A DNA stretch of 64,000 bases from Caulobacter sp. (lineage in GTDB: Bacteria; Pseudomonadota; Alphaproteobacteria; Caulobacterales; Caulobacteraceae), in the NCBI GenBank assembly GCA_021741355.1, contig JAIOXZ010000014.1:1-64000 (forward strand). Reading direction: 5' to 3'. How positions within the stretch are numbered: the first letter of the stretch is position 1; each line of letters opens with the position of its first letter. The position numbers and the translations under genes are program-made. Of the stretch, positions 5,761 to 60,949 are shown one piece after another. Below the pieces are notes generated by a model. It did no database searches, was not told the origin of the DNA, and saw nothing but the letters and a program-made list of their open reading frames with translations.

Positions 5761-5861
5761 GCGGACGTTTCCCCGGTTAACCATCTCAAAGAGCGACGTT
5801 CTTTCACTGAGTCTTAGGGAGAGCGGGTCCATCCTCTCCTGAAGACCGGGGAAACAACGGC

Positions 5862-7604
5862 GTGACGACAACGATGGAAGTGACGGACAAGTTCGGCATT
5901 CTGGCCTCCAGCAAAGCCCGGCGGCGCCATGTCGCCCTGCGCCTGGCGACGGCGGTCATCGTGGGCGGCCTGCTGCATGTCACGCTCGGCTGGTGGATGA
6001 CCTGGTTCTGGTCGGCCGCCTATGTCGGAACCCAGTTGCTCGAAGCCTGGGCGGCGCCCCGTCTGCTCCGCAAACCCGTTGAGACGCCCGCCGAGGCCGC
6101 CAATATCGCCGTGGCCCTGTTCTTCCCCGGCTCGCTGGTGTTCGGCGGCCTGGCCGTAGCGCTGTGGATCAGCGTGCCGGGCTATGGTCCGGCCCTGGGC
6201 GTGGCGGTGATCGCCAGCGCCATGATCAACCTGATCGCGCTGAGCCGGGGATCGCGCCTGTCGTTCGCCGCGTCGGCGACGCCCTACGGTCTGTACCTGC
6301 TGGTCATGCCGATGCTCGACTACGGTCGCGTCGCCGGCCCGCTGCTGACCACGATGATGATCGCCATCGGGCTGATCATGCTCAACATCATCGGCGCCTG
6401 GATCAGCACCGAGGAGGCCCGCCGCGCCCAGACGCGAGCCAATGAGGAGGCCGACCGCCGTCGCGTCGAGGCCGAGGCGGCCGTCGAGGCAAAGTCCGCC
6501 TATCTGGCGATGATCAGCCACGAACTGCGCACCCCGATCAGCGCCATTCTCGCCGGCGCGACCGAACTGGAGCGCACCTCGCCCGGACAGGGCCGCGCCC
6601 AGGCCCGTCTGATCAAGGGCGCCGGCCAGATGATGCGCGGCCTGCTCGATGATCTGCTGGACCTGTCGAAGATCGAGGTCGGGCGGATGGAGGTCGAGAG
6701 CGCGCCATTCCACCTGCGGGCGGTCATCAGCGATGCCGTGCGCATGTGGCGGCCGGAGGCGCGCGGCAAGGGGCTGCGCCTGCGTGTCGAGGGTGCGCGC
6801 AGCCTGCCGGAGTGGGTCGAGGGCGACCCGACCCGTATCCGTCAGGTGCTCAACAACCTGATTTCCAACGCCCTGAAGTTCACCGTCGAGGGATCGATCA
6901 CCCTGCGTCTGTCGGCCCAGCGCGCGGCCGGCGACGAATGGGCGCTGCAGGTCGCCGTGGCCGACACCGGTCCGGGCATGACGCCGGACCAGGTGGCGCG
7001 GCTGTTTACCCCGTTCGACCAGCTCGACGCCGGCACGGCCCGCAAGCATGGCGGCTCGGGCCTTGGCCTGGCCATCAGCCGGGAACTCGCGCGCCTGATG
7101 GGCGGTGACCTGACCGCGGCGAGCGCGCCCGGCGAAGGCGCGGTGTTCACGCTCGGCCTGACCCTGGCCGCCGCCGAGACCCCCGCGGCCGCCCAGGCGC
7201 CTGATGCCGTCGAGGCGCGGGTGCTGGTGGTCGACGACCATGCCGTGAACCGCCAGGCGATCGCGCTCGTGCTGGCCCCGCTGGGCATCGTGCCGGAAAC
7301 CGCGGCCTCGGCCGAAGAGGGTCTGGAACGGCTGGCGCACGAGGTGTTCGACGTCGTCCTGATGGACGTCTACATGCCGGATATGGACGGTCGGGAAGCC
7401 ACCCGACGCCTGCGCGCCGCCGTAGGGCCGAACCAGACCGTGCCGGTGATCGCGATCACCGCCTCGGCCACCGAACGGGACTGGGAGGCCTGCCGCGCCG
7501 CCGGCATGACCGGCCATGTCGCCAAGCCGATCGACCCGGCCCAGCTGTACGCGGCGCTCGATGCGGCGCTGGCGGGTGTCGAGGCGGCGCGAAGGGCGGC
7601 TTAG
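5862..7604 (+). CDS. Hybrid sensor histidine kinase with C-terminal receiver
   Basis: The 580-residue product starts at GTG (an ATG follows four codons later). About six membrane segments occupy residues 25-180, followed by a short coiled coil, then the H-box MISHELRTPISAIL (H220), an N-box (NNLISNALKF), G boxes (DTGPGM, GGSGLGLAIS) and a receiver domain from about residue 455 with phospho-acceptor in LMDVYMPDMDG. No periplasmic sensor loop of size is visible, so the signal is probably sensed within the membrane. No HPt or separate response regulator is adjacent; phosphotransfer to another protein is inferred. Confidence 0.93.
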   Translation: MTTTMEVTDKFGILASSKARRRHVALRLATAVIVGGLLHVTLGWWMTWFWSAAYVGTQLLEAWAAPRLLRKPVETPAEAANIAVALFFPGSLVFGGLAVALWISVPGYGPALGVAVIASAMINLIALSRGSRLSFAASATPYGLYLLVMPMLDYGRVAGPLLTTMMIAIGLIMLNIIGAWISTEEARRAQTRANEEADRRRVEAEAAVEAKSAYLAMISHELRTPISAILAGATELERTSPGQGRAQARLIKGAGQMMRGLLDDLLDLSKIEVGRMEVESAPFHLRAVISDAVRMWRPEARGKGLRLRVEGARSLPEWVEGDPTRIRQVLNNLISNALKFTVEGSITLRLSAQRAAGDEWALQVAVADTGPGMTPDQVARLFTPFDQLDAGTARKHGGSGLGLAISRELARLMGGDLTAASAPGEGAVFTLGLTLAAAETPAAAQAPDAVEARVLVVDDHAVNRQAIALVLAPLGIVPETAASAEEGLERLAHEVFDVVLMDVYMPDMDGREATRRLRAAVGPNQTVPVIAITASATERDWEACRAAGMTGHVAKPIDPAQLYAALDAALAGVEAARRAA

Positions 7605-47519: not shown

Positions 47520-48629
<1,110 letters not shown>

Positions 48630-48774: not shown

Positions 48775-48870
48775 CAGTATTGGGGACGGGCTCTTCAACC
48801 CGCCGCTTGACGGAACCCGCGCTCGCCCTTCCCATGCCGCGCAATAAATTCCCCTGTGAGGATGCGTCCC

Positions 48871-50712
48871 ATGTTGAAGACCAAACTTCTGGCCGCCGGC
48901 GCGGCCCTGGCGATCGTGGCCGGGATCGGCGGCGTTGCGGTCGTGGCCCAGGCCCAGACCCCCGCCGCCGCGCCGACCCCCGCCGCTCCGACCACGGCTG
49001 ACGCCGTGGCCTTTATCGCCAAGGCCGAGACCGATCTGGCCGCGCTGTCGCAGTATGTGAACCGGGCCTCGTGGGTCCGCGCGACCTACATCACCGAGGA
49101 CACCCAGTGGCTGGAGGCCAAGGCCGGGTCGGAGATCACCGACCTCGCCACCCGTCTGGCCATCCAGGCGGCGCAGTACGACAAGGTCGCGGTCGACCCG
49201 GTCACCCGCCGCAAGCTCGATATCCTCAAGCGCGCCCTGGTCGCGCCGGCGCCGCAGCGTCCGGGCGCGGCCGACGAGATGGCGACCATCGCCTCGCGTC
49301 TGGACTCGACCTACTCGACCGGCAAGTTCACCTACAAGGGCAAGACCCTGACGCTGAACGACGCCGAGGACATCCTCGCCACGAGCACCGACCCTGAGGA
49401 GCTCAAGGCCGTCTGGGAGGGCTGGCACTCGATCTCGCCCGGCATGGTGACCGACTATTCCCGCCTCGTGGCGCTGTCCAACGAGGGCTCGCTGGCGCTG
49501 GGCTACAAGGACACCGGCGCCCTGTGGCGCTCGGGCTACGACATGGACCCCGACGCCTTCGCCGCCGAGACCGACCGGCTGTGGAAGCAGCTGGAGCCGT
49601 TCTACAAGAACCTGCACTGCTATGTGCGGGCGCGCCTGAACGAGAAGTACGGCGATGCGGTCCAGCCGCGCACCGGCCCGATCCGCGCCGACCTGCTCGG
49701 CAACATGTGGGCCCAGCAGTGGGGCAACATCTATCCGATCGTCGCGCCCAAGAGCACGACCCCGTCCTACAATCTCGACGAACTGCTGGTGAACGCCGGC
49801 TATGATGCGACGAAGATGGTCAAGACCGGTGAGGCCTTCTACGTCTCGATGGGCCTGGCGCCGCTGCCGGAGACCTTCTGGACACGCTCGCAGATCACCC
49901 GCCCGCGCGACCGCGAAGTCGTCTGCCACGCCTCGGCCTGGGACCTGGATGACGCCGACGATATCCGCATCAAGATGTGCACCAAGGTCAACGGCGAGGA
50001 CTTCTACACGGTCCACCACGAGCTGGGTCACAACTACTACCAGCGCGCCTACAAGGCCCAGCCCTACATCTTCAAGAACGGCGCGAACGACGGCTTCCAC
50101 GAGGCGATCGGCGACTTCGTCGGCCTGTCGGCCCTGACCCCGACCTATCTGCAGCAGATCGGTCTGCTGAAGGACGCGCCCGGGCCGGACGGCGACATCC
50201 CGTTCCTGCTGAAGATGGCGCTCGACAAGATCGCCTTCATGCCGTTCGGCCTGATGGTCGACCGCTGGCGCTGGGAGGTGTTCTCCGGCCAGCTGACCCC
50301 GGCGCAGTACAATGACGGCTGGTGGGCGCTGCGGACCAAGTACCAGGGCATCACCCCGCCGGCGACGCGCCCCACGGACGCCTTCGATCCGGGCGCAAAG
50401 TACCACGTGCCGGGCAACGTTCCGTACACGCGCTACTTCCTGGCCCACGTCTACCAGTTCCAGTTCCAGCGGGCCGCCTGCAAGCAGGCCGGCTGGACGG
50501 GCCCGCTGCACCGCTGCTCGACCTACGGCAACAAGGAGGTCGGGGCGAAGTTCAACGCGATGATGGAGATGGGCGCCTCGCGGCCGTGGCCTGAAGCGCT
50601 GGAGGCCTTCACCGGGGAGACCCGCACCGACGCCAGCGCGGTGGCCGACTATTTCAAGCCGCTGAACGTCTGGCTGGTGAAGCAGAACAAGGGCGAGAAG
50701 TGCGGCTGGTAA
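48871..50712 (+). CDS. M2-family metallopeptidase (ACE-like peptidyl-dipeptidase)
   Basis: ATG 48871 (GAGG nine bases before) gives 613 residues with a signal peptide (KTKLLAAGAALAIVAGIGGVAV). The zinc site is HHELGHNYYQ (H383, E384, H387) with the third ligand E411 in FHEAIGDF. The length and fold match bacterial homologues of angiotensin-converting enzyme, which release C-terminal dipeptides from peptides in the periplasm. Alternative starts at 48856 and 48862 are in frame but lack better sites. It is monocistronic, and a terminator follows. Confidence 0.93.
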   Translation: MLKTKLLAAGAALAIVAGIGGVAVVAQAQTPAAAPTPAAPTTADAVAFIAKAETDLAALSQYVNRASWVRATYITEDTQWLEAKAGSEITDLATRLAIQAAQYDKVAVDPVTRRKLDILKRALVAPAPQRPGAADEMATIASRLDSTYSTGKFTYKGKTLTLNDAEDILATSTDPEELKAVWEGWHSISPGMVTDYSRLVALSNEGSLALGYKDTGALWRSGYDMDPDAFAAETDRLWKQLEPFYKNLHCYVRARLNEKYGDAVQPRTGPIRADLLGNMWAQQWGNIYPIVAPKSTTPSYNLDELLVNAGYDATKMVKTGEAFYVSMGLAPLPETFWTRSQITRPRDREVVCHASAWDLDDADDIRIKMCTKVNGEDFYTVHHELGHNYYQRAYKAQPYIFKNGANDGFHEAIGDFVGLSALTPTYLQQIGLLKDAPGPDGDIPFLLKMALDKIAFMPFGLMVDRWRWEVFSGQLTPAQYNDGWWALRTKYQGITPPATRPTDAFDPGAKYHVPGNVPYTRYFLAHVYQFQFQRAACKQAGWTGPLHRCSTYGNKEVGAKFNAMMEMGASRPWPEALEAFTGETRTDASAVADYFKPLNVWLVKQNKGEKCGW

Positions 50713-50884: not shown

Positions 50885-52240
50885 ATGAAGACGGGTCTGA
50901 AGAGTCTGGTTCTGGCGCGCCGTATTCTGGACGGCTGGCGCCGTGATGACGGTGCGGTGGCGATCCAGTTCGCCGTCGCGATCGTGCCGATGGCCGTGAT
51001 GGTCTTCGGCGCGCTCGACGTAAGCCGGGCGTCCGGCGAGAAGTCGCGATTGCAGGACGCGCTCGATTCCGCCGCGCTCGCCGCCGCCCGGTCCACGGAG
51101 ACCACGGACGCCGGTCTGAAACTGGTCGGCGACAAGGTCCTGGTCGCCAATCTCGCGGCGTCGAAGGCGACCCTCGGCGGCTCGACCTTCCGCCTGGAAG
51201 GCTCGAAGATCATCGCCACCGCCCAGGCGTCGATGGCGACCACGGTCGCAGGCCTGTGGATGGACGGCGACATGACCATCGGCGCGGAGTCGGAGGTCAC
51301 GCGGTCGTCGAACAATGTCGAGGTGGCGCTCGCGCTCGACGTCACGGGCTCGATGTCCGGACAGAAGATCACCGACCTGAAGGCCGCCGCCAAGGATCTG
51401 GTCGACCTCGTCGTCCAGGACCAGCAGACGCCCTACTACACCAAGCTGGCGCTGGCGCCGTACTCGGCCGCCGTGAACGTCGGACCCTACGCCGCCGACA
51501 TCCGCGGGACCTACAGCGGCGGGACCTGCACGACGCCGGGCTGCGCCAGCTACAAGTTCACCAACGCCCAGGGTAACCTGAAGACCTTCGCCATCAGCAC
51601 CTGCGCCACCGAGCGGACCGGGTCGGACGCCTTCACCGACGCGGCGCCGGGCTCCAGCCCGCTGGGCCGCAACTATTCCAGCAGCGCGAACGGCTGTCTG
51701 GCCAGCACCATCACGCCGCTGTCCACCGATCGGACCGCCCTGAAGAGTCAGATCGAGGGCCTGACCGCCGCCGGCTCGACCGCCGGGCATCTGGGCCTGG
51801 CCTGGGGCTGGTATCTGGTGTCGCCCAACTTCGCCTCGCTCTGGCCCTCCGCCAGCCAGCCGGCGGCCTATGGGACCGACAAGCTGCTCAAGGTCGTGGT
51901 CCTGATGACCGACGGCGCCTTCAACACCACCTACTGCAAGGGCGTGATCAGCAAGGACTCAGGGTCCGGCAGCGGCTCGTCGTCTGATCACATCAACTGC
52001 AACGCGCCGAACGGCGGCGCCTTCGCCCAGGCCCAGGCCCTCTGTTCGAACATGAAGGCGCAGGGCGTCATCATCTATACCGTGGGCTTCGACGTCGCCG
52101 ACGACGAGAACGCGCAGGACATCGTCCGCGAATGCGCCACCGACGCGGACCACGTCTACATGCCGTCCACCGGGGCCGCGCTGAAGACGGCGTTCCGCGC
52201 GATCGGCGAGGACATCTCCCGGCTGCGGATATCCCGATAG
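50885..52240 (+). CDS. TadG-like pilus assembly protein with von Willebrand A domain
   Basis: The 451 residues begin with a TadE/G N-terminal motif (DDGAVAIQFAVAIVPMAVMVFGALDVSRAS), which is a membrane helix, followed by a vWA domain with MIDAS DVTGSMSG (D152) and VVLMTDGAF. Cysteine-rich segments (GGTCTTPGCASY, ISTCATERTGSD) probably form disulfides. Such proteins accompany tight-adherence (Flp) pili, but no other tad gene is nearby. A paralogue follows 91 bases later. Confidence 0.85.
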   Translation: MKTGLKSLVLARRILDGWRRDDGAVAIQFAVAIVPMAVMVFGALDVSRASGEKSRLQDALDSAALAAARSTETTDAGLKLVGDKVLVANLAASKATLGGSTFRLEGSKIIATAQASMATTVAGLWMDGDMTIGAESEVTRSSNNVEVALALDVTGSMSGQKITDLKAAAKDLVDLVVQDQQTPYYTKLALAPYSAAVNVGPYAADIRGTYSGGTCTTPGCASYKFTNAQGNLKTFAISTCATERTGSDAFTDAAPGSSPLGRNYSSSANGCLASTITPLSTDRTALKSQIEGLTAAGSTAGHLGLAWGWYLVSPNFASLWPSASQPAAYGTDKLLKVVVLMTDGAFNTTYCKGVISKDSGSGSGSSSDHINCNAPNGGAFAQAQALCSNMKAQGVIIYTVGFDVADDENAQDIVRECATDADHVYMPSTGAALKTAFRAIGEDISRLRISR

Positions 52241-52331: not shown

Positions 52332-54161
52332 ATGAACCGTGCCACGAAACGGCCCGCCAGCGGGCTCCTCGCGCCCATCGGACGTTTTCTCCGGCGCTTC
52401 CGCAGCGAGCGCGGCGCCGTGGCCATCTGGTTCGCCGTCATGGCCCTGCCGACCGCCGTGCTGGCCTTCGGCCTGATCGATGTCAGCCGCGCCAGCGTCG
52501 AGAAGCGCCAGCTGCAGGACGCGCTCGATGCGGCGACCCTGATGGCCGCCCGCTCGACGTCTACGACCGACGGCCAGATGCAGGCCATCGGCGCACCGGC
52601 CCTGGCGGCCCAGCTCTCGGGCGTCAGCGACGCCACGATCCAGAGCTCCAGCTTCAAGATCGTCGGCACCAAGGTGACCGGCACTGCGACGGCCTCGGTC
52701 GTTCCCGTCATCGCCAACCTCTGGCTCCAGGGCAACATGACCGTCGGCGCGGAGTCGGAGGTGGCCCGGTCCTCGACCAACCTTGAGGTGTCGATCGTGC
52801 TCGACATCACCGGGTCGATGAGGGGGCAAAAGCTCACCGATCTGAAGGCCGCCGCCAAGGACCTGATCGACCTGATCGTGTCGGACGTCCAGACGCCCTT
52901 CTATTCCAAGGCCGCCCTTGTGCCGTTCGAGGTGGGGGTAAACTTGGGCAGCTATGCCGACAGCGCCCGGGGCGCGGTCGAAAACGCCAAGACGATCACG
53001 GCGGCCTCCTGGTCGACTGGCTCGCCCAAGGCGATCAGCGGTGTGTCCAAAAGCAATCCGGCAAAAGTGACGGCGACGGCGCACGGGTTCAACAACGGTG
53101 ACGTGGTCTGGATCACCGGCGTGAAGGGCATGACCAATATCAACAACCGGGCCTTCGTCGTCGCCAACAAGACGGCCAATACGTTCGAACTCGCTGGCGT
53201 CAACAGCGGGAGCTACAAGAAATACAAGTCGGCCGGAACCGCGACCAAGTGCACATTGGCCGATTGTTCGATCGTGCTGACCTCGAACGGGCATGGGTTT
53301 GACAACGGAGACAGCGTCTACATCACCGGCGTTGGCGGTATGACGCAGATCAACAACGAGGTTTTCACAGTCGCCAGCAAGACCGCCAACACCTTCTCGT
53401 TGTCCGGTGTGAACGGCGCCGGCTATGGGACGTTTACGTCGGGCGGCGCGATCTGGTGTCTGGTCGCGGGGTGCAAATACTACCAGCTGACCGACAATGA
53501 CGGCGACGAGCGACTGTTCGAGATCACCACCTGCGCGACCGAGCGCGTCGGGACGGACGCCTATCTGGACACCGAGCCCGGCGGCTCGCCCGTGGGCAAG
53601 ATGTACACCCCCGACGGAGACGGCTGCCCCTCGGCCACCATCTTCCCCCTCTCGACCGACAAGACGGCGCTGAAGGCGGCGATCACCGACCTCGACGACG
53701 GCGGTGCGACCGCCGGCCAGATCGGTGCTGCCTGGGGCTGGTACATGCTGTCGCCGAACTTCGCCTCGTTGTGGCCGACCGCCAGTCAGCCGGCCGCCTA
53801 TACCGCCACCGACGTGCTGAAGGTCCTGATCATCATGACCGACGGCGACTTCAACACGGCCTACTGCAACAACGTGCTCAGCAAGGATTCCAACGGCCGC
53901 GACGACGAGCAGATCAACTGCAACGCCACCAACGGCAACCCGACGACACAGGCCCAGGCGATCTGTACGGCGGCCAAGGCCAAGGGCGTGGTGATCTATA
54001 CCGTCGGCTTCCAGGTCGGCGCCGGCTCTACGGCGGAGGCCTTCATCAAGGCCTGCGCGACGGATGCGGACCACGTCTACCTGCCGTCGAGCGGCTCGCT
54101 GTTGAAAGACGCCTTCGCGGCCATCGGCCGCGACATCACCAAGCTGAGGCTGTCCCGCTAG
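52332..54161 (+). CDS. TadG-like vWA protein with two inserted repeat domains (paralogue of the previous gene)
   Basis: The 609 residues share the layout of the upstream gene (RGAVAIWFAVMALPTAVLAFGLIDVSRAS, MIDAS DITGSMRG at D158, DLIDLIVSDVQTPFYSKAALVPF). Between SYADSARG and the GCKYYQ cysteine region it carries about 160 extra residues with two copies (about 244-302 and 312-372) of a module with HGFxNGDxVxITGVxGMTxINN and KTANTFxLxGVN. This resembles the FCCH-type beta domain known from phage and surface proteins. The first paralogue lacks it. The domain probably extends the extracellular part. Confidence 0.85.
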   Translation: MNRATKRPASGLLAPIGRFLRRFRSERGAVAIWFAVMALPTAVLAFGLIDVSRASVEKRQLQDALDAATLMAARSTSTTDGQMQAIGAPALAAQLSGVSDATIQSSSFKIVGTKVTGTATASVVPVIANLWLQGNMTVGAESEVARSSTNLEVSIVLDITGSMRGQKLTDLKAAAKDLIDLIVSDVQTPFYSKAALVPFEVGVNLGSYADSARGAVENAKTITAASWSTGSPKAISGVSKSNPAKVTATAHGFNNGDVVWITGVKGMTNINNRAFVVANKTANTFELAGVNSGSYKKYKSAGTATKCTLADCSIVLTSNGHGFDNGDSVYITGVGGMTQINNEVFTVASKTANTFSLSGVNGAGYGTFTSGGAIWCLVAGCKYYQLTDNDGDERLFEITTCATERVGTDAYLDTEPGGSPVGKMYTPDGDGCPSATIFPLSTDKTALKAAITDLDDGGATAGQIGAAWGWYMLSPNFASLWPTASQPAAYTATDVLKVLIIMTDGDFNTAYCNNVLSKDSNGRDDEQINCNATNGNPTTQAQAICTAAKAKGVVIYTVGFQVGAGSTAEAFIKACATDADHVYLPSSGSLLKDAFAAIGRDITKLRLSR

Positions 54162-54222: not shown

Positions 54223-56649
<2,427 letters not shown>

Positions 56650-56720: not shown

Positions 56721-57671
56721 TCAGAGCAGCTTTATCTCCTTCAACCGCTGCATCAGGAATTCATCTGCGGTCAGGGGTTCGGGATAGCGGTCCGGATTAT
56801 CGGGCGTCGCGCAGCCGGGCAGGGTGCGGATCTCGTAGTCCGGCGCGAAATGCAGGAAGAACGGCGTCGAATAGCGGGCGAAGCCCCGCCGTTCCGGCGG
56901 CGGGTTGACCACCTGGTGGATCGTCGAGGGCAGGACGTGGTTGGTGGCCCGCTCCAGCATGTCGCCGATATTGCAGACCAGGCAGCCCGGCGGCGGATTG
57001 ATCGGCAGCCACTGGCCGTCGCGGTCCTTGACCTGCAGGCCGCCTTCCTCGGCGCCCAGCAGCAGGGTGATGGCGTTGATGTCGCCGTGCGCGCCGGCCC
57101 GTACGCCGGTCGCGTCGGCCGGGATCGGCGGGTAGTGCAGCAGGCGCAGGATGCTGTTGCCGAACTCGACGGCGCCGTCGAACTGGTGGCGCGGCAGGCC
57201 CAGATAGTGGGCGATCGCCTGCAGCACCTTCACGCCCATGCTGTCGAGGGCGTTGTAGAGCCAGGCGACCTTCTCGTGGAAATCGGCGATCTCGGCCGGC
57301 CAGACGTTCGGCGGCATCTGCGGCTCGTAGCGATGGCCGGGCGGCAGGTCGCGGCCCATGTGCCAGAACTCTTTCAGGTCGTAATGAGTCGCGCCCTTGG
57401 CGGTTTCGATCCCGAACGGAATGTAGCCGCGCTGGCCGCCCTTGCCGACGGCGTACTGCGTCTTCACCGCGTCCGGCAGGGCGAAGAAGCGCTTGGCCGC
57501 GTCGATGGCGGCGTCGATTTTCGCCTGGTCGAGGTCGTAGTTGCTGATCGCGGCGAAGCCGTAGCGACGGAAACTGTCGCCGAGCGCCTTCGAGAAGGCC
57601 TCGAAGTCGGTGTCGTAGAGCGAGAACGAGACGGGCTCGATCGCGGATCGGGTCTGCGCGGTGTCGGTCAT
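56721..57671 (-). CDS. 2-oxoglutarate/Fe(II) oxygenase (isopenicillin N synthase-like)
   Basis: ATG 57671 gives 316 residues. The facial triad is H195 and D197 (AHGDIN) with H252 (STIHQVV). The 2-oxoglutarate-binding RxS motif is R266-Y-S268 (FARYSTPFF). The N-terminal region (PVSFSLYDTDFEAFSKALGDSFRRYGFAAI) is the DIOX_N domain. Bacterial members act in many oxidations; the substrate is unknown. It is divergent from the OmpA lipoprotein. Confidence 0.9.
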   Translation of the reverse strand: MTDTAQTRSAIEPVSFSLYDTDFEAFSKALGDSFRRYGFAAISNYDLDQAKIDAAIDAAKRFFALPDAVKTQYAVGKGGQRGYIPFGIETAKGATHYDLKEFWHMGRDLPPGHRYEPQMPPNVWPAEIADFHEKVAWLYNALDSMGVKVLQAIAHYLGLPRHQFDGAVEFGNSILRLLHYPPIPADATGVRAGAHGDINAITLLLGAEEGGLQVKDRDGQWLPINPPPGCLVCNIGDMLERATNHVLPSTIHQVVNPPPERRGFARYSTPFFLHFAPDYEIRTLPGCATPDNPDRYPEPLTADEFLMQRLKEIKLL

Positions 57672-57793
57672 GGCGGCCCTTTTACACCCGCCGCGACGCC
57701 CGCGCACCTGACCTGAATCAAGCGCGGGCGGGCGATGGCGGAACCGCTGCGGGCGCGGGGCGTTTGGGCCGCACAATCTCACCGGAGCCACCC

Positions 57794-58468
57794 ATGTTGA
57801 AAACCTCGGCGCTTGCCGCCTGCCTGCTCGCCGCCACCGCCCTGGGCGCCTGCACGACCATCGACCCGAACACCGGCGAGACGGTCCGCAACAACGCCGG
57901 CACCGGCGCGATCGCCGGCGCTGTCGGCGGCGCCCTGCTGGGTTACCTGACCAACACCAGCGATGGCGAGCAGGGCCGCAAGAACGCGCTGCTCGGCGCC
58001 GGCATCGGCGCGCTCGGCGGCGCGGCCGTCGGCAGCTACATGGACCGCCAGCAGGCGGAGCTCCGGCAGGAGCTGCAGGGCACCGGCGTCAGCGTCACCC
58101 GCGACGGCGACAACCTCGTGCTGAACATGCCGAGCGACGTGACGTTCGGCGTCGATCGCTCCGACATCCAGCCGCAGTTCGTGCGGGTGCTCGACGGCGT
58201 GGCGACCATCCTGAACCGCTACCCGCAGACGCTGGTCGATGTGATCGGTCACGCCGATTCCACCGGTGACGACAGCTACAACCAGGCGCTTTCCGAGCGG
58301 CGCGCCAGTTCGGTGGCGATGTTCCTGACCGACCGCAGCCGCGTGCTGCCGGGTCGTCTGTTCGTGCAGGGGCGCGGCGAAAGCCAGCCTGTGGCCAGCA
58401 ACGAGACCGCCGAAGGCCGCGCCGTGAACCGTCGCGTCGAGATCGTGCTGCGGCCGTTCCGCGGCTGA
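57794..58468 (+). CDS. OmpA-family lipoprotein with glycine-zipper
   Basis: ATG 57794 gives 224 residues. The lipobox is ATALGACTT. A glycine-zipper segment follows (GAIAGAVGGALLGYLTN...GALGGAAVGSYMD), and the C-terminal OmpA domain begins VTFGVDRSDIQPQFVRVLDGVATIL with the diaminopimelate-binding residues in VIGHADSTGDDSYNQALSERRA. It anchors the outer membrane to peptidoglycan. It is convergent with the KefC gene (4-base gap). Confidence 0.92.
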   Translation: MLKTSALAACLLAATALGACTTIDPNTGETVRNNAGTGAIAGAVGGALLGYLTNTSDGEQGRKNALLGAGIGALGGAAVGSYMDRQQAELRQELQGTGVSVTRDGDNLVLNMPSDVTFGVDRSDIQPQFVRVLDGVATILNRYPQTLVDVIGHADSTGDDSYNQALSERRASSVAMFLTDRSRVLPGRLFVQGRGESQPVASNETAEGRAVNRRVEIVLRPFRG

Positions 58469-58472
58469 TGCG

Positions 58473-60383
58473 TCAGGCAGGCCGGGCAGGACCGTCCTGC
58501 TCGGCCGCCTCGCGCTGGTCCTCGTCGCGGCCGCTGGGATCCCAGCCGTCCGCGGCGCCGGGCTTCATTGTCGCCAGGTCGGCGGCCAGCAGGCGGTCCA
58601 TGGTCTGGGCCGCGTCGCGCGACGCCAGCATGTAGGCCTCGGTCTGGCCCCACATCGGCCGCAGCTCCTCGAACGTGCGCAGGTCGTGCCGGCGGAAGTA
58701 GTCGGCCGCCCGGTGCGCGCGGTGCGCGCGGAAGCCGAGCGACTTGAGCGCCGTGACGCCCATCGCCAGCGCGCCTTCGAAGGTCTCGCGTTCCACGGCG
58801 TCGGCCCCGTTGGCCAGCATGTCGTAGGCGTGCCGCCGGTCGAAGGCGCGGGCCAGGATCGTCAGGTGCGGGAAGGCCTCGCGCGCACGCTCGACCAGTT
58901 CGGCCGCCTTCTCCTGGTCGTCGATCGCCACGATCAGCATCCGGGCCCGCTCGGCGCCGGCCTGCCGCAGCAGGTCCAGACGCGTGGCGTCGCCGTAGTG
59001 CACCCGCCTGCCGAAGCGCCGCAGCAGGTCGATCATCTCGATATCGGCGTCCAGCACGGTCGACTTGAAGCCGTTGGCCATCAGCAGGCGTCCCGTGACC
59101 TGACCGAACCGGCCGAAGCCGGCGATGATGATGTCCGGCTCGGCGTCTTCTTCCTCGAAGGTCGGGTCGGCGATGCTCTCGGTCGGGTTCTTGCGGTCGA
59201 GGAAAGTCAGGATCTTCTCGTAGACGATCACCGTCAGCGGGGTCATGGCCATCGAGACAGCCACCACGGCGGTCAGCAGGTCCGCCAGCGGCTGGCTGAT
59301 CACCCCCGCGCCGACCGTGAAGGTCAGCAGCACGAAGGCGAACTCGCCGCCCTGGGCCAGGGCCACGGCCACGGTCGCCGCCAGCCGGTTGGACGCCCCG
59401 CCGACCCGCGCCAGGGCGAACAGCACGACGAACTTCAACGCCATCAGTCCCAGCACCAGCCCGATCAGCAGCAACGGCTCGCGCAGGATCAGACCGAAGT
59501 CGATGGTCGCGCCGACGGTGATGAAGAACAGGCCGAGCAGCAGGCCGCGGAACGGCTCGATGTCGGTTTCCAGCTCGCGCCGGAACTCACTTTCGGCCAG
59601 CACCACCCCGGCCAGGAAGGCGCCGAGCGCGGGCGACAGGCCGACGATCTGCATCAGCAGGGCCACGCCGACGACGATCAGCAGCGAGGTGGCGGTGAAG
59701 ATCTCGCGCAGGCGCGACTGGGCGATGAAGCGGAACACCGGCCGCACCACGAACCGGCCGCCGCCGACGACCGCCCCCACCGCCGCCAGCACCGCCAGCG
59801 CCTGCATCCAGGCGGGCAGGTCGGCGACCAGGCTGGTGGAATGGGTGTCCGAGGTCAGCTGCACCGGTCCGGTGGCCAGCAGCGGCAGCAGGGCGAACAG
59901 CGGGATGATCGCCAGATCCTGCAACAGCAGCACGCCGAAGGCCGCCCGGCCGACGGGCCCCTGTCGCAGCCCCTTCTCGTCGAGGGTCTGCAGGACGATC
60001 GCCGTCGAGGACATCGCCAGCACGAGGCCGGCCGCCAGCGCCGTCGGCCAGGGCAGGCCGAAGATCATGCTGGCGCCGGCGATGGCCAGGGCCGTGGCCA
60101 CGACCTGCGCCCCGCCAAGGCCGAAGATGGTCTTGCGCATCGACCAGAGCAGGGCGGGCCGGACCTCCAGCCCGATCAGGAACAGCAGGATGACCACGCC
60201 GAACTCGGCGAACGCCATCACGTCCTCCGGATCGCCGGTCAGGTTCAGCGCGAAGGGACCGATCAGGGCGCCGGCGATCAGGTAGCCGAGCACCGAGCCG
60301 AGCCCGAGCTTCTTGGCCGCCGCCACCGTCACGACGCCCGCGGCCAGATAGACCAGCGCCTGGGTCAGGAAGTCGCCGTGCAT
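58473..60383 (-). CDS. Monovalent cation:proton antiporter (KefB/KefC-type)
   Basis: ATG 60383 overlaps the kefF stop and gives 636 residues. The first 390 residues are 12 or 13 membrane helices of a CPA2 antiporter (GYLIAGALIGPF, LLQDLAIIPLF, GAFLAGVVLAESEF). A cytosolic RCK/TrkA-N domain follows (AGFGRFGQVTGRLLM, YGDATRLDLLRQAGAE). The Kef system releases K+ in exchange for protons when glutathione adducts build up. Cotranscription with kefF supports a Kef role, although KefC and KefB cannot be distinguished here. Confidence 0.9.
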   Translation of the reverse strand: MHGDFLTQALVYLAAGVVTVAAAKKLGLGSVLGYLIAGALIGPFALNLTGDPEDVMAFAEFGVVILLFLIGLEVRPALLWSMRKTIFGLGGAQVVATALAIAGASMIFGLPWPTALAAGLVLAMSSTAIVLQTLDEKGLRQGPVGRAAFGVLLLQDLAIIPLFALLPLLATGPVQLTSDTHSTSLVADLPAWMQALAVLAAVGAVVGGGRFVVRPVFRFIAQSRLREIFTATSLLIVVGVALLMQIVGLSPALGAFLAGVVLAESEFRRELETDIEPFRGLLLGLFFITVGATIDFGLILREPLLLIGLVLGLMALKFVVLFALARVGGASNRLAATVAVALAQGGEFAFVLLTFTVGAGVISQPLADLLTAVVAVSMAMTPLTVIVYEKILTFLDRKNPTESIADPTFEEEDAEPDIIIAGFGRFGQVTGRLLMANGFKSTVLDADIEMIDLLRRFGRRVHYGDATRLDLLRQAGAERARMLIVAIDDQEKAAELVERAREAFPHLTILARAFDRRHAYDMLANGADAVERETFEGALAMGVTALKSLGFRAHRAHRAADYFRRHDLRTFEELRPMWGQTEAYMLASRDAAQTMDRLLAADLATMKPGAADGWDPSGRDEDQREAAEQDGPARPA

Positions 60384-60949
60384 CAGACCGTCTCCCGCGC
60401 GCCGGCCGCCAGGCCCTCGAGGCGCGCCCGGTAGCGGTCGGCCTCGCCCTGGATGTGGGCGCTGTCCTTCAGGCGCGCGCCGTGGACGACGTAGGGATTC
60501 TCCCAGGTCATGCCGCAGAGAGCTGCGGTCTGCTCCAGCGGGCGCAGGAACTCCTCCATCGTAAAGCGGTTGTAGCCACGCTTGTGGTAGGCCTGCGCCG
60601 GGCCGCCGGTGGTGCAGGCGACGAACAGCTGCTTGCCTTCCAGCCTGTCGCCGCCCTTGCCGTAGGCGAAGCCGTGCAGCCAGACGAGGTCCAGCCACTC
60701 CTTCATCAGGGCAGGCGTCGAGTACCAGTACATCGGGAACTGCAGGGCGATCACCTGATGCGCCAGAAGCTTCCGCTGCTCGGCTTCCACATCGATCACG
60801 AAGTCCGGGTAGGTCTCGTAGAGATCATGGAACCGCACGCCGGCGGCGTCCCGCGCCGCGTCCGCCAGCACCGTGTTGGCGCGCGAGCGCTCCAGCGCCG
60901 GATGGGCGAAGACAACCAGCACCGAGGGTTCGCGGCCTTCAGGCTCCAT
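60383..60949 (-). CDS. kefF: NAD(P)H oxidoreductase, KefF-like ancillary flavoprotein
   Basis: The 188 residues carry flavodoxin-like motifs VVFAHPALERSRAN, LQFPMYWYSTPALMKEW and CTTGGPAQAYH. KefF-type proteins bind FMN, reduce quinones and activate the antiporter. The gene precedes the antiporter with a one-base overlap. The assignment rests on context as well as sequence, since the same fold includes MdaB and NQO1 relatives. Confidence 0.85.
   Translation of the reverse strand: MEPEGREPSVLVVFAHPALERSRANTVLADAARDAAGVRFHDLYETYPDFVIDVEAEQRKLLAHQVIALQFPMYWYSTPALMKEWLDLVWLHGFAYGKGGDRLEGKQLFVACTTGGPAQAYHKRGYNRFTMEEFLRPLEQTAALCGMTWENPYVVHGARLKDSAHIQGEADRYRARLEGLAAGARETV

Follow-up and report, generated by a model that had tools for sequence, protein, structure and literature searches.

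A CpaL-type protein with FCCH-like modules inserted in its vWA domain, and a tandem paralogue that has probably lost them

The longer member of a tandem gene pair in a Caulobacter-group bacterium is, on the combined grounds of architecture, MIDAS motif and synteny, almost certainly the orthologue of cpaL. By sequence and predicted structure, the insert that interrupts its vWA domain is a pair of FCCH-like barrels related to the FCCH domain of ubiquitin E1 enzymes and to phage tail proteins. Taken as a whole, the account we favor, namely a CpaL orthologue with an old two-barrel insert and a role at the pilus tip, accompanied by a short paralogue from which the barrels were lost, is likely to hold. 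The identification of the CpaL barrels as FCCH modules goes beyond the paper describing CpaL, which reported no structural match for them (PMC12607857), and a literature search found no paper linking FCCH modules either to phage tails or to CpaL.

The pair lies in the window, i.e. the whole stretch of 64,000 nucleotides that was analyzed, and both open reading frames were recovered on the forward strand exactly where the preliminary description had placed its tandem TadG/vWA paralogues. The short gene (50885..52240, 451 aa) lies 91 bp upstream of the long one (52332..54161, 609 aa). Pfam searches recover a Tad segment, two copies of E1_FCCH and a VWA domain in the long protein, all over their cut-offs, and the same set without E1_FCCH in the short protein, which combines a Tad/TadE pilin N-terminus with an uninterrupted vWA domain bearing the MIDAS motif. 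In BLAST alignments residues 13-208 of the short protein match 18-214 of the long one and residues 208-451 match 366-609, such that the shared flanks claimed earlier are indeed present on either side of an insert of about 160 residues, which within the pair is found in the long protein only. With the insert left out, the two cores are 55% identical over 440 residues. Compared with their nearest relatives both genes show purifying selection, strong in the short one (dN/dS 0.14) and with dN/dS of 0.24 in the long one.

The long protein can be divided into five parts, all encoded on the forward strand. The pilin-like N-terminal segment (residues 28-74; 52413..52553; PF13400, E 9.9e-10) holds a prepilin-type A-X4-F site at residues 29-34, which reads A29-VAIW-F34. 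It is followed by the first part of the vWA domain (about residues 148-213; 52773..52970), with D158-x-T160-x-S162 of the MIDAS motif at positions equivalent to those published for CpaL (PMC12607857). FCCH-like modules 1 (residues 239-307; 53046..53252) and 2 (residues 309-376; 53256..53459), both delineated by Pfam E1_FCCH, the predicted structure and Foldseek, come next, and the second part of the vWA domain (about residues 377-606; 53460..54149), located by Pfam, alignment and predicted structure, supplies T460 and D504. The MIDAS is thus complete (D158, T160, S162, T460, D504), and its residues are invariant or nearly so in the alignment. In the predicted structure the two FCCH-fold beta-barrels enter the vWA domain after its second strand.

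This layout is that of CpaL of Caulobacter crescentus (CCNA_0199), a protein of 626 aa with a pilin region at 27-147, a vWA domain split between 148-203 and 384-626, and a MIDAS formed by D160/T162/S164/T470/D515. Its residues 204-383 form two beta-rich domains, described as six-stranded barrels interrupting the vWA domain, for which Dali gave no strong match (PMC12607857). CpaL and the long protein therefore have in common the pilin-like N-terminus, the split vWA domain with full MIDAS and the two tandem barrels at the same place. Among the relatives, the protein at locus L015 is also 626 aa long, has all five published MIDAS residues at identical positions and carries FCCH modules at 242-379; given this match in length and residue positions, it is taken to be CpaL of C. 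crescentus or of a near strain, and the long protein is about 48% identical to it. The full model of the long protein also matches the vWA pilus adhesins SpaC, PitA, RrgA and Mfa5 in Foldseek searches, the kind of match reported for CpaL; these adhesins have a vWA domain with MIDAS as the long protein does, but belong to other pilus types.

The gene neighborhood points in the same direction. Upstream of the pair is an M2-family peptidase-like gene (48856..50712, forward strand), and downstream are genes for a hybrid histidine kinase-like protein (54223..56649, reverse), a 2OG-Fe(II) oxygenase-like protein (56721..57791, reverse), an OmpA-like protein (57764..58468, forward) and a KefB-like protein (58473..60698, reverse), all conserved neighbors named by sequence recognition. 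The 2OG oxygenase, OmpA and KefB genes also lie near the cpaL gene of L015 (a reference locus identified by its length and the five residues), with the oxygenase adjoining cpaL in that C. crescentus-like genome. A gene order running from the M2 peptidase through one to three CpaL-like genes and, in some cases, the histidine kinase to the 2OG oxygenase and OmpA recurs in many relatives, including Brevundimonas and more distant ones. From these common neighbors and the retained gene order it follows that the long gene is the positional orthologue of cpaL; the window adds to the C. crescentus arrangement a module-less paralogue directly upstream, which, unlike CpaL, has no two-barrel insert in its vWA domain. 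Beyond the peptidase gene, a transglycosylase-like frame (47520-48629, again named by sequence recognition) contains an extended series of Pro-Glu repeats close to the N-terminus.

That both genes of the pair stand outside a tad cluster could be read to mean that they encode periplasmic or surface vWA proteins with merely a TadE-like anchor and no part in a pilus. We consider this highly improbable: cpaL is itself an orphan gene, recovered from a phage-resistance screen, whose loss lowers piliation, raises holdfast production and alters phage sensitivity (PMC12607857), the long protein has the prepilin-type site, and the genome of the window encodes Flp pilins as well as CpaB/CpaC-like proteins. 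The location of these genes on other contigs is expected for an orphan such as cpaL. The Flp pilin genes are spread over three contigs of this genome (G000: C13, C40 and C52), with CpaB/CpaC-like genes beside the copy on C52, which suggests that the genome has more than one tad-type cluster.

Both modules of the insert pass the Pfam E1_FCCH (PF16190) cut-off, also when each is searched singly, and the whole protein gives an E-value of 1.5e-22, placing the match far from chance. Searching the genome of the window with E1_FCCH returned no match beyond the long gene. The motifs HGFxNGDxVxITGV and TANTFxLxGVN singled out in the preliminary description are both present, but the modules are not near-identical, as it had them, being 53% identical across 68 aligned residues. 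AlphaFold models the insert as two well-defined beta domains (pLDDT 93.6), in support of a separate fold inside the vWA domain. Against solved structures Foldseek places ubiquitin E1 enzymes on top (for 4p22_B, rmsd 1.4 A over 80 columns for the predicted model), with the tail tube protein of phage T1 lower among the matches (E 7.9e-4). A profile of the inserts searched against PDB sequences likewise recovers the UBA1 FCCH domain with an E-value of 4.4e-8 and phage tail proteins with values from 1e-3 to 0.6.

The occurrence of such modules in phage tail proteins, proposed from the start, is supported from several sides. PHROGs assigns the modules to a major tail protein family (phrog_584), Foldseek searches of viral predicted structures yield many phage proteins, some of them annotated as FCCH-containing, and tail tubular proteins, e.g. 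tail tubular protein B of a Pelagibacter phage, are among the phage proteins on record with similar modules. Identity to phage tail proteins reaches 58.6%, in joined pieces. On the basis of this similarity and of where the modules occur, the two-barrel insert plausibly came from a protein of the phage tail type. The long protein itself was assessed as a member of either family and rejected in both cases. Only its FCCH stretch matches the E1 model TIGR01408, scoring 27 bits where the cut-off is 750, and, unlike UBA1, it has none of the E1 enzyme domains (neither adenylation nor catalytic cysteine domains); in this exported protein FCCH serves instead as a tandem insert. With phage tail tube and tail tubular proteins, which differ in having neither Tad nor vWA domains, it shares the FCCH-like barrels alone, and its neighbors are conserved chromosomal genes.

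A recognizable FCCH match is present in 108 of 299 Caulobacteraceae genomes, a minimum figure, since the Pfam model misses diverged modules present in further genomes. Long CpaL-type frames lacking a Pfam FCCH match (e.g. in G056 and G064) were considered as possible carriers of some other inserted domain, but two diverged modules were found there; thus, Pfam counts underestimate the spread of FCCH. Apparent larger proteins of 850-970 aa in genomes of this type were discarded, as the frames are upstream extensions without sign of coding. Within the genus of the window, too, CpaL-type proteins at loci L150-L156 have two diverged FCCH modules which Pfam misses or reports weakly. In an order-wide sample every FCCH locus read out was of the CpaL type, and in a class-wide sample the FCCH proteins outside the order lack the Tad/vWA core, one of them having a Baseplate_J domain.

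Across Caulobacteraceae and Hyphomonadaceae, CpaL-type proteins usually have the two-module insert, with carriers spanning Caulobacter, Brevundimonas, Hyphomonadaceae and Alphaproteobacterium SO-S41. By the preliminary description, its reading would fall if all orthologues contained the insertion as a core part of the fold; this is half the case, as most orthologues do carry it, but as a separate beta domain outside the vWA core. Module number in CpaL-type proteins nevertheless varies between 0, 1, 2 and 4. Four-module inserts are seen at L087:4001-6391, L090:3941-6478 and L131:577-3150, and single-module proteins at L008, L010, L033, L062 and L063. The single module starts like module 1 and ends like module 2, and hence these forms may, judging from their sequences, be fusions of the two, as recombination between repeats would give.

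The module tree sets first modules apart from second ones: a single clade (SH-aLRT 99) contains all 47 first modules found in two-module proteins, together with the six single modules and one of the modules from a four-module protein. This separation implies a single assembly of the two-module array, before Caulobacteraceae and Hyphomonadaceae diverged, and we regard as very probable a single old origin of the insert, inherited since with changes in module number. As the two-module insert is both old and the usual state in CpaL-type proteins, it is most likely the shorter gene that is derived. Of the alternatives first offered, a gain by the longer gene or a loss by the shorter, the distribution and the module and core trees thus leave loss as the better reading, and that the short gene of the window lost its modules is, though not proven, quite probable. 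In core trees computed with the modules left out, module-less clades, including that of the short gene, are nested among module carriers, and the AU test rejects the grouping of all carriers as one clade (p = 0.010).

Under the converse reading, the tandem duplication came first and the long gene then acquired the modules, leaving the short gene in its original form. This agrees with the lack of modules in distant Hyphomicrobiaceae relatives, and when the AU test is limited to the short clade of the window the result is borderline, an early short lineage not being rejected at 5% (p = 0.058). Such a recent gain is improbable all the same, since carriers run through all the lineages named above, the division between first and second modules holds throughout them, so that the array predates those splits, the broader AU test speaks against it, and the members of the short clade that have a genus code are all from the window's own genus. 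The junction in short proteins (GTYSGGTCTTPGC) resembles the end of module 2 and, judged from the window pair, looked good as a deletion scar; given a similar stretch in the module-less outgroup L091, however, the junction is no clean scar.

Tandem CpaL-like copies at the locus differ in number and kind between genomes. Beside the CpaL-type genes, relatives encode a third, divergent type of module-less vWA paralogue, which measures 478-537 aa and shares about 33% identity with the short protein (L068:3050-4516; L072:6779-8215; L074:2183-3796 and 5817-7373; L076:2742-4286; L077:2284-3828 and 5814-7385). In L068 it stands between the short and long genes, a position in which it is absent from the window. 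The tandem copies recall Myxococcus with its several tip complexes, in which several paralogous tips occur in one genome. These TadG-type or Kil tips (e.g. KilN) resemble the window proteins in being large minor pilins with a C-terminal modular domain and a predicted place at the Tad tip; the extra domain of KilN4 had no structural relative in that study, which does not mention FCCH modules (PMC12075869).

By analogy with CpaL, whose place at the Tad pilus tip alongside CpaJ and CpaK is itself a prediction (PMC12607857) and which is included in the machine model of PMC13170226, the pilin part would place the long protein at the pilus tip together with CpaJ and CpaK. The vWA/MIDAS part, comparable to that of CpaL and the vWA pilus adhesins, would touch surfaces and respond to tension, and the two barrels would form an arm projecting from the vWA domain away from the MIDAS, which could serve as a second contact surface or a lever. 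That this arm acts in contact or adhesion is, on such analogies, a possibility of somewhat less than even weight, and the earlier suggestion that the insert brings a changed ligand or spacing is a guess. A slightly weaker case can be made for passive modules, which would space or stabilize the vWA domain without contacting a ligand: the vWA core is conserved whereas module counts range from 0 to 4, the modules evolve faster than the core (dN 0.289 against 0.062 and 0.072 between the window and L068), and those of some relatives are too diverged to reach the Pfam threshold. Yet most lineages have retained two modules from that old origin onward, under purifying selection (dN/dS 0.33), which fits some function.

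The two paralogues would then yield two kinds of pilus tip, a long one with the arm and a short one without. More speculatively, one to three alternative Tad-pilus tip proteins might make up a conserved array between the M2 peptidase and 2OG oxygenase genes, in which a surface-contact arm of phage-tail-type FCCH barrels varies (0, 1, 2 or 4 modules). If true, such an array would let one cell field pili with armed and unarmed tips. CpaL ranks among the leading candidates for the force sensor in the Caulobacter pilus, and no relatives of its barrels had been reported; the natural module-less paralogues and single-module forms described here are ready variants for testing what these barrels do.
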